64,000 nt of DNA, taken from a virus. The translations under genes and the position numbers were made by a program. Shown in pieces: positions 36,829 to 36,913 of this stretch. The notes under the pieces were generated by a model that made no database searches, was not told the origin of the DNA, and worked only from the letters and a program-made list of their open reading frames with translations. Position 1 is the stretch's first letter. The number at the start of each line of letters is the position of its first letter. Location of the stretch: positions 54,935 through 118,934 of the IMG/VR virus record IMGVR_UViG_3300030419_002087; one strand, given 5' to 3'.

Positions 36829-36913
36829 TGTGAGGTGGCGAAACGGTAAACGCTCTAGTCTGTTTAACTAGTGTTCCTGGCGGGACTTATAGGTTCGACT
36901 CCTATCCTCACAG
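36829..36913 (+). tRNA. tRNA with anticodon GTT (Asn by decoding) and long class II variable arm
   Basis: Perfect acceptor stem TGTGAGG/CCTCACA with G at 36913 as discriminator and no encoded CCA; D arm GCG/CGC; anticodon stem CTAGT/ACTAG around loop CTGTTTA, giving anticodon GTT at 36862-36864; T arm ATAGG/CCTAT with loop TTCGACT. The variable region is 17 bases and contains a 5-bp stem (GTTCC/GGGAC), a class II feature of Leu, Ser and Tyr tRNAs, not Asn. Position 37 is T, where nearly all tRNAs have a purine. Identity is therefore uncertain. Confidence 0.85.

Follow-up and report, generated by a model that had tools for sequence, protein, structure and literature searches.

The window (the whole 64,000-nucleotide stretch of DNA that was analysed) lies in a phage record of 118,934 bases whose closest named relatives by DNA are the Prochlorococcus phages P-SSM7, P-SSM2 and P-SSM5. 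The only tRNA gene found in it by ARAGORN follows an open reading frame of 265 amino acids that ends nine nucleotides upstream. The features of the locus are as follows.

35965-35986, + strand: terminator-like hairpin upstream of the pair (consensus match only)
36022-36819, + strand: catalytic core of 265 amino acids like that of class II aminoacyl-tRNA synthetases (aaRS), resembling asparaginyl-tRNA synthetase, AsnRS (PF00152, PHROG 29758, AlphaFold2 model, structural match to AsnRS)
36829-36913, + strand: tRNA with anticodon GTT (ARAGORN; Rfam RF00005; covariation over 28 relatives)
36860-36866, + strand: anticodon loop CUGUUUA of this tRNA (sequence; 28-sequence alignment)
36872-36888, + strand: its variable arm of 17 nt with a 5-bp stem (sequence; some relatives lack it)

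The segment 36022-36913 appears to be a two-part module in which a catalytic core derived from AsnRS is joined with a tRNA of its own. The initial annotation dealt with the tRNA and left out the main point, which is the AsnRS-like partner gene directly upstream and the pyrimidine gene context. The phage record contains a further structured RNA, a manA motif (RF01745) at 57500-57698 on the plus strand with a score of 120.7 bits.

The tRNA and its identity elements

The tRNA scores 52.3 bits against RF00005 (cut-off 29 bits), and the Rfam model counts no non-canonical pairs. The acceptor stem (TGTGAGG/CCTCACA) is paired at 7/7 positions and the anticodon stem (CTAGT/ACTAG) and T stem (ATAGG/CCTAT) at 5/5 each, the D stem is GCG/CGC, and the variable region of 17 nt (TGTTCCTGGCGGGACTT) forms a 5-bp stem that includes one G-U. 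The first pair is U1-A72, the D arm is Leu-like, the discriminator is G73 (position 36913) and CCA is not encoded in the DNA. The anticodon GTT begins at position 34 of the loop CTGTTTA, in which U33 is present and T37 falls at 36865; sequence and ARAGORN agree here with the first reading of the loop.

Alignment of 28 diverse relatives gave pairing in 100% of the paired cells. When the structure was slid by 1-3 columns, pairing fell to 37-51%, and the covariation score of 0.76 compares with 0.21 for shuffled and 0.09-0.16 for slid structures. RNAalifold, unaided, returned the same cloverleaf together with the variable-arm stem. Such heavy covariation indicates that the tRNA is under selection; the stems are intact, as originally described, and a decayed gene is ruled out. 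Two objections raised at the outset can also be set aside. No register shift produces an alternative fold with a normal anticodon loop, and T37 is not a sequencing error, because 61 of the 66 distinct relatives likewise have U at position 37 (the others have G in 3 cases and A in 2). Position 33 in the same 66 sequences is U in 57, C in 8 and A in 1, making it non-U in 9/66. Among 73 ordinary tRNAs from the same loci, position 33 is always U and position 37 always a purine, with 0/73 exceptions; a 'tRNA-Lys' of locus L051, which is a misread member of the GUU tRNA family, stands outside these 73.

G34, U35 and U36 are invariant in the 28-sequence alignment, G73 is nearly so (the sole exception is a row that is incomplete at that end) and most members start with U1-A72. 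In bacteria, G73 with G34 U35 U36 constitutes the Asn identity and these elements alone suffice for transplanting it; Leu identity requires A73, and G73 is an antideterminant against LeuRS (PMC9976931). The phage tRNA carries the complete Asn set. It also has the D arm and long arm of a tRNA-Leu body, with G73 and GUU where A73 and a Leu anticodon would define Leu identity. Since the covariance model of the family matches mainly tRNA-Leu in 28 ordinary genomes, the body is Leu-like, as had been proposed. The long variable arm is real in the window and inconstant in the family, being replaced by short loops in four relatives (L102, L107, L132 and L154), so that 'class II' does not define the family; a role of this arm as the key identity element is ruled out. 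The alignment thus documents a Leu-type body that bears the Asn identity set and an anticodon loop different from that of decoding tRNAs. It is general knowledge that tRNAs with U36 carry a modified purine at position 37 and that U33 is near universal; a decoding tRNA-Asn would be expected to have both, and the phage tRNA has U33 but U37. We infer that the tRNA decodes weakly or not at all and that GUU has been retained for its part in identity. The idea of an identity-switched, non-decoding tRNA is partly supported by sequence: GUU and G73 on a Leu-like body and the unusual positions 33 and 37 recur, and the class II label does not carry over.

These features bear on the simplest functional reading, an orthogonal translation pair in which a mini-AsnRS would charge a phage tRNA-Asn that decodes AAC and AAU during infection. 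The union of an AsnRS-like core with an Asn-type tRNA, the canonical T arm and cloverleaf, and the presence of further tRNAs in related phages (three more in L001) are in its favor, but U37 and the variable position 33 speak against it, as do the cellular relatives that lie in pyrimidine clusters without a tRNA and the exclusion of PyrB, both presented below. A translation pair is possible, would explain neither the cellular distribution nor the loop, and is considered unlikely.

Two further observations concern tRNAs in related phages. A second GUU tRNA lineage (L101, L111, L147 and L161) starts with A1-U72 and has a 3' end of GC plus other bases, not GCCA. In P-SSM7 (L001 4888-4960) a tRNA-Leu(UAA) of only 73 nt lacks the long variable arm expected of tRNA-Leu and, together with tRNA-Ile and tRNA-Arg, forms a cluster immediately before the enzyme-tRNA module.

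The partner enzyme and its linkage to the tRNA

The protein encoded at 36022-36819 matches Pfam PF00152 (tRNA-synt_2, the class II D, K and N synthetases) with 3.7e-15 and 56 bits against a cut-off of 25, and it belongs to PHROG 29758 (3.1e-172), which is annotated without function. No NCBIfam model is matched above its cut-off: AsnRS models (TIGR00457, PRK03932) give 18-29 bits against cut-offs of 342-414, and the archaeal asparagine synthetase A model (NF005055) gives 24.2 bits against 389. The AlphaFold2 model has a pLDDT of 93.2, and its best structural match is human AsnRS with Asn-AMP (Z 25.8, rmsd 2.2 over 242 residues, 21% identity); AsnRS catalytic domains are followed by AspRS and archaeal asparagine synthetase A (Z 23.6). 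AsnRS is likewise the top match of a profile of the enzyme family (9.1e-13). The motif QTGQMWLE aligns with QSSQLYLE of AsnRS, the AspRS counterpart being QSPQLYKQ, and R88 and E90 of motif 2 and R259 of motif 3 are conserved among 247 proteins of the family. Fold and motifs together identify a class II aaRS core in which, judging by conserved residues, the adenylation motifs and the Asn-type pocket motif are kept. The model aligns with the catalytic domain of AsnRS only and has no N-terminal anticodon-binding OB domain; hence the enzyme cannot read GUU as AsnRS does. A search of the literature outside subscription journals and preprints found no earlier description of the family.

Homologues are named 'tRNA ligase' in GenBank, and an RNA ligase is ruled out by the class II aaRS core. 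PADLOC models matched 0 families, with no known anti-phage defence protein, and a defence gene is ruled out on that basis. The same results weigh on an anti-defence role, in which the tRNA would resist or saturate host anticodon nucleases and the linked enzyme would repair or recharge it. Phage tRNAs can act as decoys against such nucleases, and the altered anticodon loop would suit this function, but there is no PADLOC match, the enzyme is an aaRS core despite its label, and the pyrimidine context would be left unexplained. We regard this role as very improbable.

In marine phages the pairing is obligate wherever the tRNA occurs. The tRNA is present at 80/80 close enzyme loci with enough downstream DNA; conversely, when viral contigs were scanned for the D-arm/anticodon pattern of the tRNA alone, the enzyme lay directly upstream in 109/109 contigs with enough upstream DNA. 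P-SSM7 has the pair between gp23 and gp3, P-SSM2 and P-SSM5 have it before a 'lipase' gene, and because these neighbourhoods are unrelated it appears to move as a unit. Consensus matching predicted no plus-strand terminator-like site in the nine-nucleotide gap, which is consistent with one transcript. At a single close locus (L081 2434-2525) the two genes are separated by an insertion that contains repeated hairpin-like sequence.

Other phages have the enzyme without an adjacent tRNA, and the covariance model found none elsewhere in their records (86-92 bits for true members, no more than 61 for anything else). In freshwater-type phages (L112, L119, L122, L124 and relatives) the enzyme is beside a DnaK-like gene with no tRNA nearby, and the sequence upstream of the enzyme gene in a huge phage (L084), folded for a tRNA-like element, gave no cloverleaf. 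The tRNA-bearing phages do not form one clade in the enzyme tree, in which the starred branches force at least 6 changes and the lineage with A1-U72 is a separate clade distant from the group of the window. The association has therefore been gained or lost repeatedly, each time with a tRNA in which GUU and G73 stand on a Leu-type body. This history fits, without proving it, a general interaction of the enzyme with tRNA-Asn or Asn-tRNA, for which some phages supply a copy of their own.

The linkage is central to the main rival of the reading that we prefer, which keeps the metabolic role developed below and makes the enzyme an adenylating ligase that would act as a pyrimidine front end on free asparagine or aspartate, as asparagine synthetase A does, without a tRNA; the tRNA would then have a separate role, such as a regulator, a folding partner or a sink. 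Many phage relatives and the cellular ones do without a dedicated tRNA, the anticodon-binding domain is missing, and the archaeal asparagine synthetase A that matches closely in structure is tRNA-independent. Against these stand the obligate pairing wherever the tRNA exists, the survival of its Asn identity elements through strong divergence, and the repeated rise or loss of the association in separate lineages. We therefore treat a tRNA-independent front end as a possibility that deserves attention and remains doubtful.

Cellular relatives and the absence of PyrB

Other phages, huge phages among them, have relatives of the enzyme (~45-65% identity), and so do cellular genomes of Patescibacteria, DPANN archaea, Chlamydiota, Dependentiae, Midichloriaceae, Gammaproteobacteria and Bacteroidota, among them the complete genome of Pasteurella atlantica. 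Neighbouring genes were clustered and then named with Pfam. In cells the enzyme clusters with pyrimidine genes, homologues of PyrD, PyrE or PyrF lying within 3 kb at 29/80 cellular loci; they do so at 8 viral loci as well, and the tRNA is present at every one of the eight viral loci where neighbours are PyrE/PyrF-like. PRPP synthetase and PEPCK adjoin some loci. The gene order is DHODH, enzyme, PyrF, PyrE in P. atlantica and enzyme, PyrF, PyrE, PyrD, PRPP synthetase in Midichloriaceae, and one phage contig (L141) has PyrF, PEPCK, a PyrE-like gene, the enzyme and the tRNA together. The covariance model found no dedicated tRNA in 30 cellular carrier genomes, except on two phage-like contigs, the top matches being ordinary tRNAs.

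Several neighbourhoods have features of their own. P. atlantica (L183 2974-4907) has a second PyrF elsewhere in the genome, and its enzyme-PyrF-PyrE cluster looks horizontally acquired. The enzyme adjoins a protein of the fumarase/argininosuccinate-lyase type (PF00206) at four loci (L115, L175, L237 and L243), with PyrE and an amidohydrolase also nearby in L175, and a glutamine synthetase-like gene is near the enzyme in L115 and in the same gene cluster of L097, L099 and L226.

Carrier genomes keep the later part of the pyrimidine pathway, and its first enzymes are mostly missing. PyrF is present in 43/49 carriers, and models are matched above cut-off by PyrB (aspartate carbamoyltransferase) in 3/49, by CarB in 4/49 and by the pyrC_multi dihydroorotase in 3/49; PyrB, CarB and PyrF were each found in 14/14 control genomes. 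Many carrier genomes are draft MAGs, and the contrast of PyrF with PyrB and a test within one order guard against incompleteness. In the order of Aureispira (Chitinophagales), where 99 genomes drawn evenly included 6 carriers, PyrB is absent from 6/6 carriers and present in 84/93 non-carriers (Fisher p=4.5e-6; p=1.5e-3 when only the 3 carriers that had not been known before are counted), and this test includes genomes of 2-7 Mb. By sequence matching, cellular relatives of the enzyme lie in PyrD/E/F clusters, and the genomes in which they occur are without PyrB and, for the most part, without CarB and PyrC. The Chlamydiota clade has the enzyme in 1/116 genomes, and the loss of PyrB may have other causes in some small cellular genomes. 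The picture is less clear for PyrC than for PyrB: in the order of Aureispira, two PyrC-like proteins are common among relatives without the enzyme, against none, one or two weaker ones in carriers, and some Bacteroidota carriers encode a PyrC-like protein that scores under the cut-off. Three carriers (G012, G014 and G025) encode a divergent carbamoyltransferase-like protein that covers positions 1-273 of TIGR00670 with 104-127 bits, below the cut-off; it may be part of an alternative route or a paralogue of the arginine type.

The pyrimidine link could be incidental if the enzyme served in asparagine synthesis or in scavenging and were a passenger in the nucleotide clusters of reduced genomes. 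It shares its fold with asparagine synthetase A, and several carriers are small, parasite-like genomes, but the PyrD/E/F neighbours recur in many phyla, PyrB is excluded within Chitinophagales even in the larger genomes, and the protein is far below the NCBIfam cut-off for asparagine synthetase A. Such a coincidence seems quite unlikely.

The explanation that we prefer, and to which we give about an even chance, is that the enzyme is an alternative front end of pyrimidine synthesis starting from asparagine or aspartate and that the phage tRNA is its dedicated, probably non-decoding partner with Asn identity. The enzyme would convert asparagine or aspartate to dihydroorotate or a precursor that feeds PyrD, PyrE and PyrF; gene context and PyrB absence suggest that the family makes dihydroorotate or its direct precursor without carbamoyl phosphate, and, with less assurance, that it works on tRNA-bound asparagine. 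A more specific form, in which asparagine held on tRNA becomes dihydroorotate and the route replaces CarAB-PyrB-PyrC in scattered bacteria and archaea, phages adding a non-decoding tRNA(GUU), is put forward tentatively, as plausible with the balance somewhat against it. In this form cells would use their ordinary tRNA-Asn for the enzyme, and marine phages would bring the dedicated tRNA(GUU), charged by the host AsnRS or the mini-synthetase, with GUU serving identity and not decoding; asparagine could then reach pyrimidines without competition from translation. The chemistry is conjectural throughout: the alpha-amino group of Asn-tRNA might bind CO2, the resulting carbamate might be adenylated, and the side-chain amide might close the six-membered ring with release of dihydroorotate, the tRNA ester blocking a competing anhydride with the alpha-carboxylate. 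Because cells and tRNA-less phages have the enzyme without a dedicated tRNA, a special tRNA, or any tRNA, may be unneeded. Most phage records with the enzyme, including those of P-SSM2, P-SSM7 and the window, have no PyrF, and these phages would therefore have to feed host enzymes.

Comparison with known systems

De novo pyrimidine synthesis is taught as a single pathway that joins carbamoyl phosphate and aspartate. If the proposal is true, a compact AsnRS-derived enzyme that replaces the first steps would constitute a second pyrimidine route, would explain how many reduced genomes and the predatory genus Aureispira make pyrimidines without PyrB, and would show a means by which marine phages raise nucleotide supply.

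The closest comparison is with AsnRS and tRNA-Asn (class IIb), with which the module shares the class II core, the pocket motif QxxQxxLE and a partner tRNA bearing GUU and G73. It differs from AsnRS in the missing OB-fold anticodon-binding domain, an identity of ~20% and scores far under the NCBIfam cut-offs, and from tRNA-Asn in the Leu-type body, U37, the variable position 33 and the pyrimidine gene context. Archaeal asparagine synthetase A (AS-AR; 3p8t, 3reu, 1nnh) is likewise a stand-alone AsnRS-like core of similar size that has lost the anticodon-binding domain and has taken a metabolic role, and its structural similarity to the enzyme is high (Z 23.6). The sequences, however, are only 19-20% identical (24 bits against the cut-off of 389), and AS-AR has no linked tRNA, whereas the present family is tied to PyrD/E/F and to the absence of PyrB.

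PylRS with tRNA-Pyl and similar orthogonal pairs also combine a synthetase core with its own unusual, co-encoded tRNA, but here the anticodon is a normal sense one, the synthetase is of the Asn/Asp class and decoding is doubtful; a minimal synthetase co-encoded with a sense-codon tRNA would be of interest for genetic-code engineering. The phage tRNA resembles the allo-tRNAs, long-armed metagenomic tRNAs with unusual cloverleafs and unexpected anticodons, from which it differs in that its acceptor/T arm is a normal 7/5, its anticodon is GUU and it is obligately accompanied by the adjacent enzyme gene. We know of no tRNA-dependent biosynthesis of pyrimidines and of none that uses a dedicated phage tRNA. 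Aminoacyl-tRNA serves as a metabolic intermediate in GatCAB/AspRS, the glutamyl-tRNA reductase HemA and SepRS/SepCysS, a logic that the proposed module would share. Should the tRNA prove to take part, the synthesis of nucleotides would be added to the short list of pathways run on aminoacyl-tRNA.
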